From a virus: 24,047 nucleotides of DNA. The stretch covers positions 1 through 24,047 of the IMG/VR virus record IMGVR_UViG_3300009104_000123, one strand, 5' to 3'. Shown piece by piece: positions 708-23,784 of the stretch; position 1 is the stretch's first letter; every line of letters begins with the position of its first letter. The notes below the pieces were generated by a model, which saw only the letters and a program-made list of their open reading frames with translations, made no database searches and was not told the origin of the DNA. Both the position numbers and the translations under genes were made by a program.

Positions 708-1011
708 TGTTCATACATTCAAACCACCAGTCTGTGCCTATCCATGCACGGCACCTCTCTTTAGCGGTGATTTTTCTTTGTTCTATTACTTCTTTATGTT
801 CTTCTGAGTCCATACATATATAAGTACCTGTCTTATCTGTATAGCATAAACCTGGAATAGGTTCGAATGGGGCACAACTAGGTAACCCAAACATAACTAA
901 AATCATTAGTGGTACTCCTATTGCATAGACTAATCCAGAGACTAGCCATTCAGGTAGATCATAAATAATTCTTTCAAAGATTGATTTTTTTGTTTTTATA
1001 AGTTTCTCCAT
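697..1011 (-). CDS. Small membrane or lipoprotein-like protein
   Basis: This 104-aa protein has a basic N-terminal stretch of about 20 residues, one hydrophobic segment (about residues 22-44) ending in LPSC, and a soluble, charged, cysteine-containing C-terminal half. LPSC could be a lipobox, although the region before it is longer than usual for a lipoprotein signal, so a single-pass membrane protein is equally possible. The gene overlaps its neighbours at both ends (16 bp with the Asn/Thr-repeat gene, 11 bp with the NIDO-like gene), which places it in one minus-strand operon of exported proteins. An outer spanin was considered but no partner is visible. Function unknown. Confidence 0.65.
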   Translation of the reverse strand: MEKLIKTKKSIFERIIYDLPEWLVSGLVYAIGVPLMILVMFGLPSCAPFEPIPGLCYTDKTGTYICMDSEEHKEVIEQRKITAKERCRAWIGTDWWFECMNNEN

Positions 1012-2213
1012 TCTTTCTTACATGTTCCTCTTGATTTTCTTACACCTTCTTCATTTCTTTCGTTAGTGCAAATTTTTAAAAATTCTGATTTCTTATCTTT
1101 TGAATCTGGTCTTTCTTGTGGGTTTTCTCCCCATGATGCAGTAGCTTTCTTGCCAGTATCACCCATGTAAGGACACGGTGTTCCAGCCATTTCCATAGCT
1201 TGGAAAACTCGTACATCTTGACAAAGTAGTGCAACTGAAGCCACCTTCATACCCATATCATAAAGATACTTGGAAAGTTTTAATCTTTCACAATTCATAT
1301 CTCTGACAGTTCTTCCACCTGATATACCAAAAACCTGTCCCTGAAAGGCACCACTTCGTCCAGTAGTACAAAGATCCTGTGAATAGGACATTATACTTGG
1401 AGCTATTGCTGATGCTGGGGGAGCTTTTTGTGTAATTTCTTGTTTGATAGTTTGTGTACTGTTAGATTCGTTAATGTTTCTATTAGTGTTATCTGATACA
1501 GAATTATTGTTATTGGTATTAGTATTATCAGTAGTGACATTTGAATCTGACTCCGATTTATTAACATTAGTATTAGTATTAGTGTTATTGCTTGTACTAG
1601 TATTAGTGTTATTATTAGTATTAGTGTTACTTGAAGTGCTATTGCTAGTACTTGTATTAACATTAGTATTAGTGTTATTGTTAGTATTATTATTTGTATT
1701 TGAACTAGTTACATTACTAGTACTTGTATTGTTTGAAGTGCTATTTACTGTTGATGTGTTTACATTAGTATTAGTACTTGTACTATTATTAGTATTATTG
1801 TTGGTACTAGTATTAGTATTTGTGTTAGTATTAGTATTAGTTCCTGTTGTAGTAGTAGTGTTTGTATTGGTGTTGGTATTAGTATTTGTCAAACCACCTG
1901 AACTAACATTATTATTTGTATTAGTCGAAGTGCTTGTAGTAGTTGTAGTATTAGTGTTATTATTTGTGTTGTTATTTGTGTTGGTATTAGTATTGGTATT
2001 CGTATTAGTATTTGTGTTAGTGTTTGTATTCGTGTTGGTGTTAGTATTCGTATTGGTATTCGTATTTGTATTAGTGGTAGTAGTAGTATTAGTAGTTTCT
2101 AATGAATTCTGCTCACAATACTGCTCTCCCGCTGTACAGTCTCCTGTCTGGTCCGCTAAGATACCGTACGACATAAATGCGAATAGGCCAGCAACAACCG
2201 CCATTCGTTTCAT
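996..2213 (-). CDS. Exported protein with long Asn/Thr repeat and cysteine-containing C-terminal domain
   Basis: The 405-aa product has three parts. The first is a signal peptide (residues 1-20, MKRMAVVAGLFAFMSYG followed by ILA). The second is an extreme low-complexity tract of about 220 residues (roughly 41-260) made of alternating Asn and Thr with some Ser and Val. The third is a C-terminal domain of about 140 residues that looks folded, with several cysteines and the segments TTGRSGAFQGQVFGISGG and DMNCERLKLSKYLYDMGMK. The repeat is encoded by degenerate TNT/TAN codons, so the protein pattern is kept while the DNA varies. This gives a spurious Leu/Val-rich frame on the other strand. It probably works as an extracellular stalk or spacer carrying the C-terminal domain. 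That role is inferred; I do not recognise the family. Confidence 0.8.
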   Translation of the reverse strand: MKRMAVVAGLFAFMSYGILADQTGDCTAGEQYCEQNSLETTNTTTTTNTNTNTNTNTNTNTNTNTNTNTNTNTNTNTNTNNNTNNNTNTTTTTSTSTNTNNNVSSGGLTNTNTNTNTNTTTTTGTNTNTNTNTNTSTNNNTNNSTSTNTNVNTSTVNSTSNNTSTSNVTSSNTNNNTNNNTNTNVNTSTSNSTSSNTNTNNNTNTSTSNNTNTNTNVNKSESDSNVTTDNTNTNNNNSVSDNTNRNINESNSTQTIKQEITQKAPPASAIAPSIMSYSQDLCTTGRSGAFQGQVFGISGGRTVRDMNCERLKLSKYLYDMGMKVASVALLCQDVRVFQAMEMAGTPCPYMGDTGKKATASWGENPQERPDSKDKKSEFLKICTNERNEEGVRKSRGTCKKEWRNL

Positions 2214-2255: not shown

Positions 2256-2720
2256 TTATTTATCTTCTTTTATGAGTTTTTGTAGTAATTTTCCGTAATT
2301 ACCCTGACCAAAAGGAAGGCCTGAATTGTCTTGAATATTGACTTGGGTTTTTACTGTTTGAGCTTTAGCTTTTTCCATTTCTGTTTGAGCTTTAAGCTCT
2401 TCTATTCTCATTTTATGAGCCATAGCTAATAAATCAGCCATGTCTTTATTACTGTAAATTTGAGTCTCTTCCGCTTCTTCTAGTTTCTTTTCTATCAATA
2501 AATCTAGTGTTTCTGATAATTTGAATCTATTCCTGTATCCTGTGTCTAAAAATACAGTATCAATGTACTGTTTAATTTCTCTTTTATTTAATGCTTCTGT
2601 CACTTGGTTTTCTGTTACCCCCAAGTTATCGCATACCGCTGGGATACTTCCGTGTTCGAGATAACTGTTTGCTATCTCTAGTCCTTCAGGACTCATTTTG
2701 GTTACTATATTTGTACTCAT
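2256..2720 (-). CDS. Terminase small subunit-like DNA-binding protein
   Basis: The 154-aa protein has an N-terminal helix-turn-helix (about residues 17-45, with GSIPAVCDNLGVTENQVTEAL), a helical middle (about 60-115) with many Glu, Lys and Leu, and a short C-terminal tail. This order of HTH, coiled-coil oligomerisation segment and tail is typical of phage terminase small subunits, which recognise DNA and recruit the large subunit for packaging. No large subunit lies in the window, so the call is tentative; a transcription regulator is the alternative. The ATG at 2720 lies only 6 nt after the -10 box of its own minus-strand promoter, so this is a leaderless first gene of the minus operon. Confidence 0.6.
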   Translation of the reverse strand: MSTNIVTKMSPEGLEIANSYLEHGSIPAVCDNLGVTENQVTEALNKREIKQYIDTVFLDTGYRNRFKLSETLDLLIEKKLEEAEETQIYSNKDMADLLAMAHKMRIEELKAQTEMEKAKAQTVKTQVNIQDNSGLPFGQGNYGKLLQKLIKEDK

Positions 2721-3711: not shown

Positions 3712-4151
3712 TGACTACACTATACATAATGAAATGCAATAAGAAACCTTATCATAAGATAGGGGTAGCCAATAACATACACCATAGACGATATGATATA
3801 GAGACATCTATACGCAAGGAATTTGGAGATGACCATAGGCTACAGGTATTGCATACGATAGAGATACCAAATAGGCATGACGCTTATACTATCGAATGGC
3901 AAATACAACACTATCTAATGAAAGCGGGTTATCAAAAGAGGTGGCAAGGTATGGGTAAATTTAAATCTAATGGTGGCTCGGAATGGTTCTATTCCCCCAA
4001 AGGAATTAAACACCTAAAGAAATATATTGCTCTCGGATTTAAATACTTTAAATCTAATCCTGCCCCAATGCCAGAGCAATGGGAAAGGAAAAGAGACGGC
4101 TCAATATATAAAATGCCCGCCTTCCTAAAAGGAAAGAAAGCCTATCACTAA
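3711..4151 (+). CDS. GIY-YIG-type nuclease domain protein (T5orf172/MUG113-like)
   Basis: The 146-aa protein begins TLYIMKCNKKPYHKIGVANN, the usual first half of the T5orf172/MUG113 branch of the GIY-YIG superfamily (YI...KIG), with an arginine in the following helix (RRYDIE). Further on are a glutamate in TIEWQIQHYL and the GGSEWF motif near residue 93, all in family order. Such proteins cut or nick DNA, and free-standing ones are often mobile in phages. The coupled start (TAATG) ties it to the preceding membrane protein gene. A second, divergent GIY-YIG-like gene lies inside the split ligase at 22620. The superfamily is fairly sure; activity and target are not known. Confidence 0.75.
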   Translation: MTTLYIMKCNKKPYHKIGVANNIHHRRYDIETSIRKEFGDDHRLQVLHTIEIPNRHDAYTIEWQIQHYLMKAGYQKRWQGMGKFKSNGGSEWFYSPKGIKHLKKYIALGFKYFKSNPAPMPEQWERKRDGSIYKMPAFLKGKKAYH

Positions 4152-4186
4152 AATTTATGGCTCAATATAAATTTTGTGAATGCCCC

Positions 4187-4211
4187 CCAAATGAGAATGG
4201 TTCTCATTTGG
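4187..4211. promoter_or_regulatory. Fur-box-like palindrome 2
   Basis: CCAAATGAGAA (4187-4197) and TTCTCATTTGG (4201-4211) form a perfect 11-bp inverted repeat with a 3-nt centre. The core matches the palindromes at 3047 and 5644. It begins 36 nt after the stop of the GIY-YIG gene and about 80 bp before the next -35 box. It could be an operator or the end hairpin of the upstream transcript. Confidence 0.5.
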
Positions 4212-4291
4212 GGCGCCGATTTTACCACACCCGCCCCCGCCTTGTCAAGCTTTTTCGAAAAAATAAATATCAATTATTTTCGCTTGGTCTA

Positions 4292-4320
4292 TTGACAGAC
4301 ACCCCAAAATTTAGTAAAAT
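4292..4320 (+). promoter_or_regulatory. Sigma-70 promoter (leaderless)
   Basis: TTGACA (4292-4297), a 17-bp spacer and TAAAAT (4315-4320) lie 7 nt before the ATG at 4328. It drives the operon 4328-5610. Confidence 0.85.
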
Positions 4321-4327
4321 TGGACAC

Positions 4328-4450
4328 ATGAAAAACAAAGAACTACAAAAAATACTAGGATTGCTTTTTAAAGCATATGTTATCTACTCAATCTCCGCTG
4401 ACATTCTTGTTATTGGCGGAATTATTTACCTTGTAATAAGGGGTTTTTAA
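4328..4450 (+). CDS. 40-aa single-pass membrane protein, copy 2
   Basis: The product starts MKNKELQKILGLLFKAY and has one membrane segment in its second half, ending in a Gly-Phe. It is a paralogue of the gene at 3153 with the same length and the same leaderless promoter geometry. The upstream reading frame from 4157 crosses the promoter and is rejected as coding. The gene is the first of an operon with the HAD-like and PPK2 genes. Function unknown. Confidence 0.75.
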   Translation: MKNKELQKILGLLFKAYVIYSISADILVIGGIIYLVIRGF

Positions 4451-4451
4451 A

Positions 4452-4904
4452 ATGATTTATATTTTTGATTTAGACGCAACAACGATAGACTCAAGCCACA
4501 GATTTTCTGGAAATGCTGAAGGAAAAATAGACCTTGAAAAATGGATTAAAAATTCAACTAGAGAAAACATTTTTAAAGATGAACTTTTACCCCTTGCTAA
4601 ATTTATGAAAGCATTAATTAAAGCAAATAAAAATGTTTGGATTTGCACAGCTAGAAACATGAAAAAAGCGGATTTTGATTTTTTGGCTCATCATGGCTTA
4701 AACGCAAAAATTATTCTTTCTAGGAAAGAGGGCGATTTCAGAAATGACGCAGAATTAAAAACCGCAAAATTAAAAAGACTTTTCAACCTCAAACAATTTC
4801 AAGGCATGGAAAAAATCATGTTTGACGATAACAAAATCATTAGAAAAGAATTGCAAAAACTAGGAATTAAAACTTTACATAACAACGCACTTAGATTAAA
4901 ATAG
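4452..4904 (+). CDS. HAD-superfamily phosphatase-like protein
   Basis: The 150-aa protein carries the ordered HAD motifs. Motif I is IFDLDAT (Asp6 and Asp8), motif II is WICTARN with Thr66, a lysine follows around residues 103-106 (ELKTAK), and FDDN at 124-127 supplies the acidic motif IV. This fits the compact phosphatase domain seen in phage polynucleotide 3'-phosphatases and 5'-nucleotidases, which remove phosphate from nucleic acid ends or nucleotides. No kinase domain is attached, so the substrate stays open. It starts 1 bp after the membrane-protein stop and is followed by a 34-aa ORF and PPK2, suggesting a nucleotide- or phosphate-related operon. Confidence 0.75.
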   Translation: MIYIFDLDATTIDSSHRFSGNAEGKIDLEKWIKNSTRENIFKDELLPLAKFMKALIKANKNVWICTARNMKKADFDFLAHHGLNAKIILSRKEGDFRNDAELKTAKLKRLFNLKQFQGMEKIMFDDNKIIRKELQKLGIKTLHNNALRLK

Positions 4905-4909
4905 GAACT

Positions 4910-5014
4910 ATGAAAAACGAAAAAAGAAAAAACCCAATCCCAACAATGCACGATATTAAAAATTCAATGTGGGGAAAGGGCAAACACTCAACAAAAAAAC
5001 TTTATATAAAATAA
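4910..5014 (+). CDS. 34-aa basic peptide upstream of PPK2
   Basis: A short frame begins at an ATG 5 bp after the HAD gene and ends in a TAATG overlap with the PPK2 start. The product is Lys-rich and soluble (NPIPTMHDIKNSMWGKGK in the middle). The clean junctions at both ends suggest a real gene that couples translation to PPK2. No RBS stands out except AGGA just before the ATG. Function unknown. Confidence 0.5.
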   Translation: MKNEKRKNPIPTMHDIKNSMWGKGKHSTKKLYIK

Positions 5015-5610
5015 TGCAAAAATTAATAAATCAACTTCACAAAAAACTAGCAAATTTAAAAGGGCAAAAAATCGCTTTTGTTTTAGAGGGTAGAGACGCT
5101 TCAGGAAAAGGCGGTTTTGTCAAACTCTTAATTAATTATGATATTCCTTTTACATATCGCCATCAAGGAATGCCCACACAAACAAGAATGAAAAAATGGC
5201 TTTCAGATTATGAAAGAATTATGCCAAGAAAAAATGAGCTTGTTATTTTTGATAGGTCTTGGCACACTCGTTCATGGGTACACCCTGTTTATAATTATTG
5301 CACAGCTAGACAATACATTAACCACATGAGAAAGGTTAAAGCATGGGAAACCAAACAAGAGGAAAACGGAATTACAATAATTAAAAATTGGATTTCTTTA
5401 GACAAAGACAGGCAAGAGCAAATTTTAAAATTGAGAAAAATAAACAAGCCTTACAAATACAGCAAGACTGACGCACTTGCTATAAAATACTTTAATGACA
5501 TTACAGACGCAAAAGAAAAAATGTTTCTAGCTTGTCCTTCTTGGAATGTTGTTAAAAAAGATACTAGCAAAGAGGAACTTTTAAAAATCTTGATAAATGG
5601 AATTGGTTAA
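5014..5610 (+). CDS. ppk2: Polyphosphate kinase 2 (PPK2 family), short form
   Basis: PPK2 enzymes move phosphate between polyphosphate and nucleotides, mostly making NTPs or NDPs. This 198-aa protein shows the family's Walker A loop EGRDASGKGG (about residues 25-34), the lid and Walker B region VIFDRSWHTRSWVHPVY (about 77-93), and the later family segment SLDKDRQEQILKLRK with the ALAIKYFNDITDAKEKMF helix. It is shorter than most bacterial PPK2 (about 230-300 aa), mainly at the ends. I chose the ATG at 5014, which overlaps the preceding stop, over an upstream in-frame codon at 4969 inside that ORF. In a phage it could regenerate nucleotides from host polyphosphate. Family sure; substrate class not determined. 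Confidence 0.88.
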   Translation: MQKLINQLHKKLANLKGQKIAFVLEGRDASGKGGFVKLLINYDIPFTYRHQGMPTQTRMKKWLSDYERIMPRKNELVIFDRSWHTRSWVHPVYNYCTARQYINHMRKVKAWETKQEENGITIIKNWISLDKDRQEQILKLRKINKPYKYSKTDALAIKYFNDITDAKEKMFLACPSWNVVKKDTSKEELLKILINGIG

Positions 5611-6999: not shown

Positions 7000-7254
7000 A
7001 AAGCGTTTCGCCACGCCGCTTTCGCCTAGTCTTTTCTAAAATAACCCCTCCCCACCCGTGGTATTATACCATAGCGGGGTAGGATTTGTCAAGAAAAAAC
7101 TTGGGCGGGGTTATGCGAAGATTTAGGGAGATTTCCACACACCCGCCAAGATTTTTGCGTTTTTTGCGAGATTTTCGAACGAAGTTCGACATTTCGCGTC
7201 CCGCCCCCGAGAATTCGTTTGCGTTATTTTTTTATGCTAAGTTTAAAATAGTTC

Positions 7255-7283
7255 TTGACTTTCTATTGCACGCCATATATAAT
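7255..7283 (+). promoter_or_regulatory. Sigma-70 promoter (leaderless)
   Basis: TTGACT (7255-7260), a 17-bp spacer and TATAAT (7278-7283) lie 6 nt before the ATG at 7290. Confidence 0.85.
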
Positions 7284-7289
7284 AAAAGA

Positions 7290-7472
7290 ATGACAAATTT
7301 ACAAAAATGCAAACTACGCGACCATTGGAAAAGGTGGAATGTCCTCTATTCAATGCTAGCGTTCTTAACTGTTTGCATCTTAGCTATAGGTTGGGAAGCA
7401 ACACAAGAGCTAAAAATAAAAGAGCTAGAAAAGTATTACACACCAACACAAGAATTAAAGGATATCGCATAA
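7290..7472 (+). CDS. 60-aa single-pass membrane protein
   Basis: The product has a charged N-terminus (MTNLQKCKLRDHWKRW), one hydrophobic helix at about residues 19-35 (VLYSMLAFLTVCILAIGW) and a charged, helical C-terminal tail. I chose the ATG at 7290, 6 nt after the -10 box; a longer frame that starts at 7086 crosses the promoter and repeat DNA. It is probably a leaderless single-gene unit, because the next promoter begins 9 bp after the stop. Function unknown. Confidence 0.7.
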   Translation: MTNLQKCKLRDHWKRWNVLYSMLAFLTVCILAIGWEATQELKIKELEKYYTPTQELKDIA

Positions 7473-7480
7473 GATTTTTC

Positions 7481-7509
7481 TTGACTTTTCCTTAATAGCG
7501 TGTCATAAT
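7481..7509 (+). promoter_or_regulatory. Promoter with a leader
   Basis: TTGACT (7481-7486), a 17-bp spacer and CATAAT (7504-7509). The start codon is 57 nt downstream, so this is one of the few units with a 5' leader. The leader has a GCGT-GAAA-ACGC tetraloop hairpin (7536-7547) and an ACGGAG ribosome binding site. Confidence 0.8.
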
Positions 7510-7566
7510 ATAAGAATAAGAAATTAAATTAACAAGCGTGAAAACGCATCTTTAACGGAGAAAATA

Positions 7567-7881
7567 ATGGTAGCAGAAAGAGCTAAAAATTACACAGACG
7601 AAATGGTCGAAGAAATGACCAAACTTTACACAGCTAATCCAAACAGAGAAACTGTTGACTTACTAGCTGGCAAATTCGGGAAATCCGTCAGAAGCATAAT
7701 TGCGAAGCTATCTAGAGAAGGAGTTTATGTCGCACAACCAAGAGTAACCAAATCAGGTGAGCCAGTTGTTCGCAAAGCAGAACTTGTTGCTCAGATTAAT
7801 GCTAAACTCGATGCAGAGTTCCCAACTTTGGTAAAGGCAAGCAAAGTAGATTTACAGAATTTAGTAAACCACCTAAGCTAA
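7567..7881 (+). CDS. Myb/SANT-like helix-turn-helix protein A
   Basis: This 104-aa protein has an N-terminal trihelical DNA-binding module of about 45 residues: YTDEMVEEMTKLY, then NRETVDLLAGKFGKSV, then RSIIAKLSREGVY as the likely recognition helix. A basic linker and a C-terminal helical part (KAELVAQINAKLDAEF) follow. It is a clear paralogue of the gene at 11392 (same length, same C-terminal design) and is related to those at 20581, 23800 and 14844. Its own promoter, structured leader and downstream terminator suggest high, separate expression. A DNA-coating or regulatory role is inferred. Confidence 0.75.
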   Translation: MVAERAKNYTDEMVEEMTKLYTANPNRETVDLLAGKFGKSVRSIIAKLSREGVYVAQPRVTKSGEPVVRKAELVAQINAKLDAEFPTLVKASKVDLQNLVNHLS

Positions 7882-7897: not shown

Positions 7898-7944
7898 CTC
7901 GCTAGGATAGAATATATCAGCACTAACTAGCGAGGAACTTTTTT
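7898..7944 (+). terminator. Terminator after protein A
   Basis: CTCGCTAG (7898-7905) pairs with CTAGCGAG (7927-7934) across a 21-nt loop, followed by GAACTTTTTT. The loop is long for a classical terminator. Confidence 0.6.
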
Positions 7945-7985
7945 AAGCAACGCAAAATAAATTATTTTAAGTGTTGCTTAAAAAA
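7939..7985. repeat. Near-perfect inverted repeat
   Basis: TTTTTTAAGCAAC (7939-7951) and GTTGCTTAAAAAA (7973-7985) are exact complements, with AAAATAA/TTATTTT pairing inside. The arms end 4 bp before the -35 box of the giant RNA promoter, so the element may stop transcription in both directions or insulate that promoter. Confidence 0.7.
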
Positions 7986-7989
7986 TTTC

Positions 7990-8018
7990 TTGACTTTTTA
8001 TTGATAGCGATATATAAT
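7990..8018 (+). promoter_or_regulatory. Sigma-70 promoter of the giant RNA
   Basis: TTGACT (7990-7995), a 17-bp spacer and TATAAT (8013-8018). No start codon with a usable frame follows; transcription should begin near 8025. Confidence 0.85.
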
Positions 8019-8024
8019 ATAATA

Positions 8025-8908
8025 ATAGAAATTACAAAAAGAAGCATGGAAAGCCGATTACTGTACAACATAAGACATCGGATTTCTGGAGGGCTCGAAA
8101 CAACTCATTCTTCGCAGTCCTCACGCTTCTAAGAGATGGCAAGTCAGGCGTTAGTAGTAAGCCTTACTAAGTAAGCAAACTAACTAGGGGCGGAGAAAAG
8201 CAACCAGCGATGGTACGATAATATCAGCTGCCCACTGCTCTTGTATTGTCCGAAAAGGCTCTTTTAAATTCAGCGGGCAAGAATAAATACTGAGTGAGCA
8301 CGCAATGAGTTGCGAAACAATATAGTGCAAAGTGTATGCAATTGCTTCAACCACCGCAACGGCACTTAAAATATAGATAAGAATGTTCAAGCACGCAGTG
8401 TCCTAGTTTGTCTGCGATACCAAAGAAACTAGGCGTGATTGACCCGTAGATGCAGCGAAAACATCTCGGAGTGCGGTGAAGCACCCCACTTAGTAGTTGC
8501 TTCAGCTCTCTCTAGTGCTAGAACTATAGACGCTTCCATGAGCGAGAGAATGGAAAGCCTACCCAATTTTAAGGGTAGCAGAATGTGGAGCAGCTCCGCG
8601 GTCGGTGGAATACCGAAAAGGAAGCAGGAGCCACCATGTATCTAGGCGACCTAATATGGTACTCTAGTAGTGGAGCGAAGGTAACGAGCCTTTGCAGAGA
8701 ACCTACTGGCACAAACCTGAGAGATAGGTTGGGGGGACATGGCATTGATGGGCTATACCTCATGCAGCAACGAAGGAGGGCTAATGGAAGTAGGTCGGCG
8801 GTTTAAAGGACATCGCTATAAACGGGCTCCTACGGCTCATTACTCTAGAAAAAGGCAAACAGCTTAGAAGTTATTTTTCAAACCCTGCCCAGCGGCAGGG
8901 TTTTTTTA
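8025..8908 (+). ncRNA. Giant structured non-coding RNA (about 885 nt)
   Basis: The unit has its own promoter and ends at a strong terminator, with no open frame longer than about 70 codons and none with an RBS. Many local helices are visible. A three-way junction closes with AGAAGC/GCTTCT (8040-8045 with 8125-8130), with arms CCGAT/ATCGG (8054-8081) and GAGGGCT/AGTCCTC (8089-8122). Further stems are CCTAGTTT/AAACTAGG (8402-8433), GTGC/GCAC (8471-8484), GCTTCCAT/ATGGAAAGC (8532-8558), CTACCC/GGGTAG (8559-8578), CGGT/ACCG (8603-8615) and AACCT/AGGTT (about 8714-8730). Base composition is more even than in the genes. Size, phage context and nearby tRNAs recall the GOLLD and ROOL classes, but I cannot confirm either from memory. 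tmRNA and RNase P features are absent. Confidence 0.8.
8880..8908 (+). terminator. Terminator of the giant RNA
   Basis: CCCTGCC (8883-8889) pairs with GGCAGGG (8894-8900) around a 4-nt loop and is followed by seven T; the preceding A residues can extend the stem. Confidence 0.9.
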
Positions 8909-8928: not shown

Positions 8929-8957
8929 TTGACAATTTTGTTATGGCGTGATATAAT
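8929..8957 (+). promoter_or_regulatory. Sigma-70 promoter (leaderless) of the small-gene operon
   Basis: TTGACA (8929-8934), a 17-bp spacer and TATAAT (8952-8957) lie 7 nt before the ATG at 8965. It probably drives much of the run up to 13684. Confidence 0.85.
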
Positions 8958-9788: not shown

Positions 9789-9915
9789 AAAGCTCATATC
9801 ACAGGTGGCAAATGATGAAGCATTTGCTAAATTATTAATATTTGCGCTCGAAAGTGAGTTGCAAGACAGACATTGGAGAAAAGCACATGGCAGAAATGTG
9901 GGAAAAAAGACATAA
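9709..9915 (+). CDS. Unknown 68-aa acidic-helical protein
   Basis: The ATG follows AAGGAAAATAG, a good RBS. The product is predicted to be all-helical with an amphipathic first half (LRDLVVKLKNSAEDTEYFKK) and a basic C-terminal end. A possible promoter (TTGTTA and TATAAG) lies just upstream at about 9673-9700. Function unknown. Its last 29 bp overlap the next gene. Confidence 0.55.
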   Translation: MDWEENISLRDLVVKLKNSAEDTEYFKKLISQVANDEAFAKLLIFALESELQDRHWRKAHGRNVGKKT

Positions 9916-10096
9916 AGTAGTTGAATCAGGCAGATGGGGTCAGTCAGCTAAAACTTATGAAAAATTTAGAACGATGGCTATGGTTTCAAAAGAGGAACTA
10001 ATAGCTTATTTAAACAAACATAATGCTAAGCCTAAAATGAGGGCTAAAGCATTAAAAGAACTCGCAAAGAGAGGAGTAAAACTAATATGGAAATAA
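9887..10096 (+). CDS. Unknown 69-aa basic helical protein
   Basis: I chose the ATG at 9887 with GGAG about 9 nt upstream. The product contains SGRWGQSAKTYEKFRTMAM, then a helix-turn-helix-like pair (SKEELIAYLNKHNAKPKMRAK with KALKELAKRGVKL). The second half could bind nucleic acid, but this is a guess from composition. It overlaps its neighbours on both sides (29 bp upstream, 10 bp downstream). Confidence 0.6.
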   Translation: MAEMWEKRHKVVESGRWGQSAKTYEKFRTMAMVSKEELIAYLNKHNAKPKMRAKALKELAKRGVKLIWK

Positions 10097-21595: not shown

Positions 21596-22549
21596 ATGGA
21601 AAATGTAAAAGCATTACTAAGGCGAGCAGCAATGGCATATTATAATGGTAAACCATTTATGTCAGATGAAGAATTTGATAGACTTGCAGAGTTGCATAAC
21701 TTTGAAGAAGTCGGAAGTGCTGATGGCAGATTTCCCCACACATTTCGTATGTATTCATTACAGAAAATCTTTGATAATGAATTAAACGAAAAAGACCCCT
21801 TTAAATTATATAAAAAACCCGTAATTGTTAGTCCTAAATTGGACGGCGCAGCGGTGGCTTTAACTTATTTAGAGGGAAACCTACATAAAGTTTTAACAAG
21901 AGGAGATGGAAAGAAGGGACTAGATGTTACGGATTTAGTAAAACATTTAGTACCGAATAGACACAGTTTTCATACACTTCCAAAAGTATTACAAATAACA
22001 GGGGAAATAGTCGCTCCAAAAACTATTAAGAACTCAAGAAACTATGCTGCTGGAGCACTTAATCTGAAAGATGTAGAAGAATTCCAAACTAGAGACCTTC
22101 ATTTTATTGCATACAATGCAGAACCCCATTTAACTCGGAGTCATTCAGAAGCTATGTCTGTGTTAAAAAATGCCTTAGGGCTTAGCACAGTATTAGATGC
22201 AGATTGGAATGAATACCCACAAGATGGGTTAGTATTCAGAGTAGATAACTATGAAGATTTTGAGAAAATGGGGTACACTTCACGACACCCTAAAGGAGCT
22301 TATGCTCTTAAACGAAGGCAAAAAGGAGTTATAACAACCTTAGTAGATGTTCTATGGAATGTAGGAAAGTCAGGAGTAGTCGCTCCAGTAGCTATTCTAG
22401 AACCTGTAGAGATTGATGATGCTATGGTAAGTAGAGCAACTCTACATAATATGGCACATATTGAAGGGTTAGGTCTAGAGATAGGTTGTCAAGTAGAAGT
22501 AATAAGAAGTGGAGAAATAATCCCAAGAATAGTAAGGAGAGCAGATTGA
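21596..22549 (+). CDS. ligA: NAD-dependent DNA ligase, catalytic part (split LigA)
   Basis: NAD-dependent ligases seal nicks through a ligase-AMP intermediate. This 317-aa part holds a short domain Ia with the NMN-binding pattern AYYNGKPFMSDEEFDRL (residues 14-30), the adenylation domain and the OB fold (about 245-315). The adenylation domain has the catalytic Lys81 in KLDG, TRGDGKKGLDVT at 101-112, GEIVAP at 136-141, DGLVFRV at 210-216 and YALKR at 236-240. The zinc finger, HhH and BRCT domains are missing here but are encoded at 23026. Domain Ia is shorter than in bacterial LigA. Phage T5 is known to have a two-gene NAD ligase, so a working split enzyme is plausible. The transcript is probably leaderless. 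Confidence 0.95.
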   Translation: MENVKALLRRAAMAYYNGKPFMSDEEFDRLAELHNFEEVGSADGRFPHTFRMYSLQKIFDNELNEKDPFKLYKKPVIVSPKLDGAAVALTYLEGNLHKVLTRGDGKKGLDVTDLVKHLVPNRHSFHTLPKVLQITGEIVAPKTIKNSRNYAAGALNLKDVEEFQTRDLHFIAYNAEPHLTRSHSEAMSVLKNALGLSTVLDADWNEYPQDGLVFRVDNYEDFEKMGYTSRHPKGAYALKRRQKGVITTLVDVLWNVGKSGVVAPVAILEPVEIDDAMVSRATLHNMAHIEGLGLEIGCQVEVIRSGEIIPRIVRRAD

Positions 22550-22620
22550 ACGCATATCAATTAATAGCATATACATTTTTAGTATTATTCATAGGATTCT
22601 TAATGGGATACTATGCATAG
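22546..22620 (+). CDS. 24-aa micro membrane protein inside the split ligase
   Basis: A TTG start overlaps the ligase stop by 4 bp, with AAGGAGA 7 nt upstream. The product is one hydrophobic helix (IAYTFLVLFIGFLMGYY). It ends in a TAGTG overlap with the GIY-YIG-like gene. Strong RBS and precise junctions support translation. Confidence 0.5.
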   Translation: MNAYQLIAYTFLVLFIGFLMGYYA

Positions 22621-22985
22621 TGGCAGGTGTATATAACGAAACATATTTTCGTAATCACCCCGAAGAAATGGAAAAAGAGGGTGTATTGTACGGAATTATC
22701 TTAGTAAATAGAAAAACATTTGAAAGAGAGTGTATTAAAGTAGGAATAGCTTCAGGGAAGGACTGGAGACACATTGTAAAGCGTAGCAGAGGTTTTAAAG
22801 GATACGATATCCGTATTCAAAGAACTTGGACTGATACCCTTTACCATGTGTGGATACAAGAACAGTATTTACACGAAATTTATACACATGACAAATATGA
22901 ACCAAAAATCAAGTTTGGAGGTCATACAGAGTGTTTCAAAATTGATTCGTTGATTCTCTCGGACTTCCCGAAAAATAATTCTTGA
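22620..22985 (+). CDS. GIY-YIG-like protein inserted in the split ligase
   Basis: The 121-aa product begins at a GTG in a TAGTG junction. It shows a GIY-YIG-like order: VLYGIILVNRKTF, then CIKVGIASGKDW, an Arg-rich helix (HIVKRSRGFKGY), a glutamate in WIQEQYLHEIY and GGHTECF near the end. The first motif is degenerate, so activity may be altered. Its place between two halves of one gene is typical of free-standing homing endonucleases. Its stop codon TGA lies within the TTGACA box of the next promoter. Confidence 0.65.
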   Translation: MAGVYNETYFRNHPEEMEKEGVLYGIILVNRKTFERECIKVGIASGKDWRHIVKRSRGFKGYDIRIQRTWTDTLYHVWIQEQYLHEIYTHDKYEPKIKFGGHTECFKIDSLILSDFPKNNS

Positions 22986-23010
22986 CATGGCATCTCAAAT
23001 TTGTTATAAT
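22982..23010 (+). promoter_or_regulatory. Sigma-70 promoter of ligase part 2
   Basis: TTGACA (22982-22987), a 17-bp spacer and TATAAT (23005-23010). The ATG at 23026 is 15 nt downstream, giving a very short leader without an RBS. Confidence 0.9.
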
Positions 23011-23025
23011 ATATATAGTGAAAAA

Positions 23026-23784
23026 ATGAGAGAAGAATTGCAAACGATAAAACCCCCAACACATTGTCCTACTTGTAGTACGACATTGATTTGGGAGAAA
23101 GACCAGCTTTTTTGTAATAATCCAGCTTGTTCTGGAAAGACATCAAAAAAGATTGAACACTTTGCAAAGACACTCAAAATTAAGGGACTCGGCCCTAGAA
23201 CTGTAGAGAAGTTAAAGATTACAACATTCTTTGATTTATACGAGCTGCCTCTTGAAATGATGATAGACGCACTTCAATCCGAGAAATTGGCAGTTAAACT
23301 GCACAGAGAAATTCAAGCTAGTAAGAGAGTGGACTTAGTAGACCTATTACCAGCTTTCTCGATAAAGTTAATTGGGACTACGGCTTCTCAAAAAGTATGT
23401 GAAAAGGTTAACTCGCTTTTAGAGTTGAACGAGCAAGTATGTAGTGAAGCAGGACTAGGCCCCAAAGCAACAGATAACTTACTAGATTGGTTTTACGAAG
23501 AATGGACAGACGGGTACGATAGATTACCTTTTAGTTGGAAAACTACAGTTCAAGAAAAAACAGAACAAACAAAAGGGATTGTCTGTATTACAGGAAAACT
23601 AAAAAGCTATAGAACAAAGGCAGCCGCAAAAGAAGTATTAGAAAAAATGGGCTACCTTGTCAAAAATAGTTTAACAAAAGATGTAACCATCTTAGTAAAC
23701 GAAAGCGGAATTGAATCCGCAAAAACACAAGCAGCCCGAGAACGGGGTGTTCAAATAATAACAAACCTAAAAACAATTTTATAA
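23026..23784 (+). CDS. ligB: NAD-dependent DNA ligase, Zn-HhH-BRCT part (split LigA)
   Basis: The 252-aa product contains the parts of LigA missing from the gene at 21596. A four-cysteine zinc finger (Cys14, Cys17, Cys30, Cys35) comes first. The helix-hairpin-helix region follows (LKIKGLGPRTVEKLKI, then LLPAFSIKLIGTTASQKVC, then EAGLGPKATDNLLDW), and a BRCT domain starts at about 183 (GIVCITGKLKSYRTKAAAKE). These parts clamp DNA. I chose the ATG at 23026; the in-frame ATG at 22987 lies in the promoter and would add residues encoded by the -10 region. Separate expression from the catalytic part implies that the two products assemble in trans. Confidence 0.93.
   Translation: MREELQTIKPPTHCPTCSTTLIWEKDQLFCNNPACSGKTSKKIEHFAKTLKIKGLGPRTVEKLKITTFFDLYELPLEMMIDALQSEKLAVKLHREIQASKRVDLVDLLPAFSIKLIGTTASQKVCEKVNSLLELNEQVCSEAGLGPKATDNLLDWFYEEWTDGYDRLPFSWKTTVQEKTEQTKGIVCITGKLKSYRTKAAAKEVLEKMGYLVKNSLTKDVTILVNESGIESAKTQAARERGVQIITNLKTIL

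Follow-up and report, generated by a model that had tools for sequence, protein, structure and literature searches.

A giant structured non-coding RNA encoded beside a D5-like gene in uncultivated T5-like viruses

The window, i.e., the whole stretch of DNA that was analysed, is a virus record of 24,047 bases. The carriers of the RNA described here are uncultivated T5-like viruses of bacteria, probably marine to judge from some IMG sample numbers. The small terminase subunit (2256-2720, minus strand) resembles its counterparts in T5-like phages, with identities of about 43% or lower, and an NAD-dependent DNA ligase encoded in two ORFs, together with D5-like proteins, is consistent with this assignment; in T5, a ligase split over two genes is normal. 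The ligase ORFs span 21596-23784 (plus strand), and the 121-aa ORF between them (22620-22985), which had no Pfam match, may encode a homing endonuclease. Several small D5-like or phrog_1725-like DNA-binding paralogues occur in the window (at 7567, 11392, 20581, and 23800, all plus strand, the last recognised by eye); the 104-aa gene at 7567, immediately upstream of the RNA, has no relative among named phages, and the phage group is thus considered uncultivated. Elsewhere, the phage encodes a polyphosphate kinase 2 (4969-5607, plus strand; PF03976, E = 7e-31), adjoined by a polynucleotide-kinase-like phosphatase at 4452-4901; no relatives were found with the kinase as protein query, and an ORF of similar appearance lies at 4094-4714 of the related locus L018. 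A protein with a very long Asn-Thr repeat is encoded near the terminase gene (996-2213, minus strand), and the matching region of the relative L032 holds a curlin-like ORF.

Downstream of the 104-aa gene, positions 7990-8908 form an isolated unit consisting of a promoter, ~880 nt devoid of genes, and a strong terminator. The unit and its surroundings comprise the following features:

7567-7881, plus strand: D5-like / phrog_1725 DNA-binding protein, 104 aa, upstream of the RNA; present in every core-bearing contig reaching far enough
7898-7944, plus strand: hairpin CTCGCTAG...CTAGCGAG ahead of a T run, read directly from the sequence; likely terminator of the upstream gene
7990-8018, plus strand: sigma-70-type promoter TTGACT-17-TATAAT, 11 of 12 consensus positions; arrangement recurs in relatives
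8025-8907, plus strand: predicted transcript of the giant non-coding RNA, its start placed from the promoter
8402-8409 with 8426-8433, plus strand: helix P0, abutting the pseudoknot strand
8434-8436 (CGU) with 8455-8457 (GCG), plus strand: pseudoknot helix, with AUUGA (8438-8442) conserved in the first loop
8444-8446 with 8467-8469 and 8449-8452 with 8462-8465, plus strand: helix P1 of the conserved core
8471-8474 with 8481-8484, plus strand: hairpin P2, strong in many but not observed in every clade
8880-8907, plus strand: intrinsic terminator, 10 bp (8880-8903) plus a T run
8929-8957, plus strand: promoter for the gene block that follows, matching 12 of 12 consensus positions
9887-10096, plus strand: first widely conserved downstream gene, 70 aa; 82 of 84 loci have a member of its family downstream of the RNA

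The original prediction had described a promoter and a strong terminator enclosing about 885 nt without a credible gene, and both signals were recovered. The likely terminator at 7898-7944 isolates the RNA unit on its 5′ side, and the perfect consensus promoter at 8929 sets it apart from the next block. Promoter modules of ~80% identity are repeated at 7245-7307, 7477-7544, and 7980-8052.

The unit has no conserved reading frame on either strand. Within the window unit no ORF exceeds 73 aa, and across homologues the longest plus-strand ORF is just as long as in shuffled sequence (56 vs. 56 aa). In four clade alignments, only 17-25% of the indels have lengths divisible by three; the close relative L004, 91% identical to the window, shows indels of 1, 3, 3, and 1 nt and one 35-nt block. 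Minus-strand ORFs are longer than those in shuffles (84 vs. 66 aa), but minus-strand coding was rejected because no single frame is kept and the frame is broken by indels. As the relatives retain no reading frame, the earlier claim that the unit lacks a credible gene holds, and with it the reading of the unit as RNA.

Relatives of the upstream gene were retrieved from IMG/VR, at first as 43 loci and later as 218, of which 80 were kept. The unit was found downstream of the D5-like gene in 124 of the 133 fetched loci, between two promoters and with a length of about 0.6-1.6 kb. These represent 84 distinct units with a median of about 1 kb, 82 of which are linked by nucleotide similarity. Most of the nine loci without the unit are cut by the contig end, and two of them (L126 and L137) still have the core described below; no core was seen in L044 and L046. 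Searches starting from core patterns led back to the same arrangement, in that every contig with a complete core and a sufficiently long 5′ flank had the D5-like gene and the promoter, with the exception of L160, which has one core copy and the upstream gene and no promoter matching the search pattern. Of the first 11 pattern hits, two (L047 and L055) were discarded as chance, with only 18 nt matched and neither promoter nor gene. Among 84,980 prokaryote species genomes, the sole relative of the upstream gene lies on L137, a 4.4-kb contig that was binned as Flavobacteriaceae, is likely a phage contig, and contains the core.

The fixed position of the RNA upstream of conserved small genes would be expected of a cis-acting element, specifically a long leader, riboswitch, or attenuator controlling those genes, and some riboswitches also use compact H-type pseudoknots. 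However, 81 of the 84 units end in a terminator that is followed by a new consensus promoter, so that the downstream genes are transcribed on their own, and the size of the RNA and the number of its peripheral helices are greater than in known leaders; we therefore consider cis action improbable.

Evidence for structure was sought over the whole length of the unit. Full-length clade alignments analysed with RNAalifold against column shuffles gave z = -12.6, -15.4, -6.2, -7.3, and -6.8 in five clades and -2.4 in a sixth, small and divergent clade of four members, all of which are approximate values because only 12 shuffles were made per clade. Each clade has 18-56 pairs with two-sided compensatory changes and about 18-35 predicted helices of three or more pairs, and there is a strong excess of UUCG tetraloops (CCTTCGGG occurs 25 times, against 0.1 expected). 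The folding energy of single sequences was not accepted as evidence (z = -2.5 in one run and -0.8 in another), and the case for structure consequently rests on covariation. The compensatory changes are numerous along the whole unit, as a genuine RNA structure demands; the exception is the stem at 8532-8558, one of two 8-bp stems singled out beforehand, which has two uncompensated mismatches in L004 and is unsupported. The other, at 8402-8433, is real and corresponds to helix P0 of the core.

This core, at 8402-8484 in the window, is found in nearly all clades and consists of P0, an H-type pseudoknot formed around AUUGA with P1, and then P2. Its consensus reads NGY-R-AUUGA followed by P1, the loop of which (RCN) is complementary to NGY, giving a short stem, a loop of 7-9 nt containing AUUGA, a long stem, and an A-rich loop that crosses the short one. 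The core starts about 160-570 nt from the 5′ end of the unit, and the 3′ part varies between clades. A core model, R1, was built with the base pairs of P1 alone, leaving the pseudoknot out; over 697 kb it gives a single match per locus, on the expected strand, and these matches extend to four loci unused in building it (L006, L009, L126, and L137). In the resulting alignment, 95.1% of the pseudoknot cells pair vs. 73% when shuffled, and 49 have two-sided changes vs. 20 by shuffling, while sliding the partner strand by one column reduces pairing to 20-24%. The outer pseudoknot pair is never broken (C-G 30, G-C 23, A-U 14, and G-U 1), and in a covariation scan of 36 units that assumed no structure it ranks second in the whole RNA. 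Two units missed by R1 (L022 and L028) nonetheless have CUC/GAG and CUU/AAG at the pseudoknot position. The strands of P0, directly 5′ of the pseudoknot, pair better with their own partners than when swapped (p = 6e-5), and P2 lies directly 3′ of P1 in many clades. The core was not identified in the units of L122, L135, and L040. The 1.6-kb unit of L051 has two pseudoknotted cores (7095-7128 and 7266-7311, minus strand).

A non-coding unit in a fixed position could in principle be a DNA-level element, such as an origin or a packaging or recombination site, whose inverted repeats mimic RNA structure. Against this, a promoter and a terminator bracket the unit on one strand, and a pseudoknot that covaries, together with G-U pairs and UUCG loops, is a signature of RNA, making this explanation extremely unlikely. 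The window unit is almost certainly a structured non-coding RNA, and descriptively it is a giant stand-alone structured phage RNA, with its own promoter and terminator, no coding capacity, and covarying structure over its length.

Comparison with known RNA classes yielded no relative. Rfam scans (cmscan) of the window and its relatives, at strict and loose thresholds, returned chance hits only. The GOLLD covariance model (RF02032) matched none of 11 records, i.e., the window and ten relatives, at E ≤ 10, and neither did the ROOL model (RF03087), the latter being the weaker negative for want of a ROOL-positive control genome. With the unit as blastn query, 50,697 phage records gave no real match, and eight cultured T5-like phage genomes searched with R1 gave nothing convincing, the unit being absent from them. 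The best R1 match in cultured phages, in Serratia phage Kamaji (L148, ON287373.1 112109-112151; E = 0.003), is probably due to chance, as it falls in a ~190-nt gap between tRNA-Gln and tRNA-Glu genes and not in a kilobase unit. No earlier description of the RNA was found in the open-licence literature. The lack of an Rfam match and the absence from cultured T5-like phages point to a new class of giant phage RNA. The original prediction had proposed a new class should no family match; with homologues and covariation now added to the negative Rfam searches, that proposal is borne out, and the RNA very probably belongs to neither GOLLD nor ROOL.

The same prediction had suggested the GOLLD/ROOL type, which is appropriate as to size and phage setting but not as to membership by covariance model. 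GOLLD often adjoins tRNA genes and assembles as a 14-mer cage, and ROOL forms an octameric cage via kissing loops. Both are phage RNAs of comparable size that form cages (PMC12286853), and GOLLD specifically is giant (many over 800 nt), ornate, and encoded by phages and prophages, with a universally conserved 3′ region and a variable 5′ region (PMC12286853). The new RNA is likewise giant, many-helixed, phage-encoded, and stand-alone, whereas its universal region is internal and a tRNA neighbourhood does not seem general. With ROOL it shares large size, phage origin, and pseudoknots, but it has another core and, in T5-like phages, a fixed place beside the D5-like gene. The large bacterial RNAs in Rfam, OLE among them, are similarly sizeable and structured; the RNA described here matches none of them and is phage-encoded. 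A distant GOLLD or ROOL whose sequence has drifted past the covariance models would explain the similar size, phage encoding, stand-alone arrangement, and many helices (PMC12286853); given the lack of any model match even at the permissive threshold, and an internal core with a variable 3′ part in place of the universal 3′ region of GOLLD, such descent is very unlikely. No relative of the RNA family is known, and in kind the RNA ranks alongside GOLLD and ROOL.

The placement of the unit next to a translation-related cluster, also proposed originally, is weak: two tRNAs do lie 3.6 kb from the unit in the window, but an association with tRNAs does not seem to be general. Only the window, L004, L006, L009, and L017 have tRNAs within range; of 31 loci scanned, 27 have none, and the same holds for most relatives represented by 7-20 kb of sequence.

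With regard to function, we think it fairly likely that the segment encodes a large structured RNA, transcribed independently, which acts as RNA in trans during infection by uncultivated T5-like phages. Host RNA polymerase would transcribe it early and strongly, as suggested by a near-consensus promoter of the host sigma-70 type, set among small genes with similar promoters. T5 early promoters are very strong, which makes early and abundant synthesis of the RNA likely. Our best guess is that the folded RNA, which is about 0.9-1.2 kb long, serves as an early, abundant, trans-acting scaffold or decoy. That a small core stays invariant among arms specific to each clade suggests a single conserved contact, with a partner or in self-assembly, and a variable scaffold: the universal core may bind a single conserved partner or make an assembly contact, the variable arms may scaffold or sequester molecules, and the whole may act as RNA or as a ribonucleoprotein particle, as is thought for GOLLD and ROOL. 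We propose the scaffold or particle mechanism only tentatively. A host-directed decoy, titrating away an RNase, a ribosomal factor, or a defence protein of the host, with arms diversified by an arms race, would fit the strong host-type promoter and the conserved core with clade-specific arms; it is at present a prediction, scaffolding fits these features equally well, and we regard the decoy as somewhat unlikely. For the trans-acting RNA that we favour, the most specific formulation is a third giant phage RNA class, independent of the other two and forming an early RNA-only or RNA-protein particle around a small universal H-type pseudoknot that binds one conserved partner, which is possible, with our confidence falling short of even.

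To our knowledge, only a few natural RNA classes are this large and complex. An unrelated class that is tied to one locus and has over 80 distinct members with strong covariation provides an independent case for what giant phage RNAs do, and it also bears on how common RNA-only particles are. The alignments and the core model supply ready constructs for cryo-EM and probing. If the particle reading is true, phages would have invented large RNA machines repeatedly.
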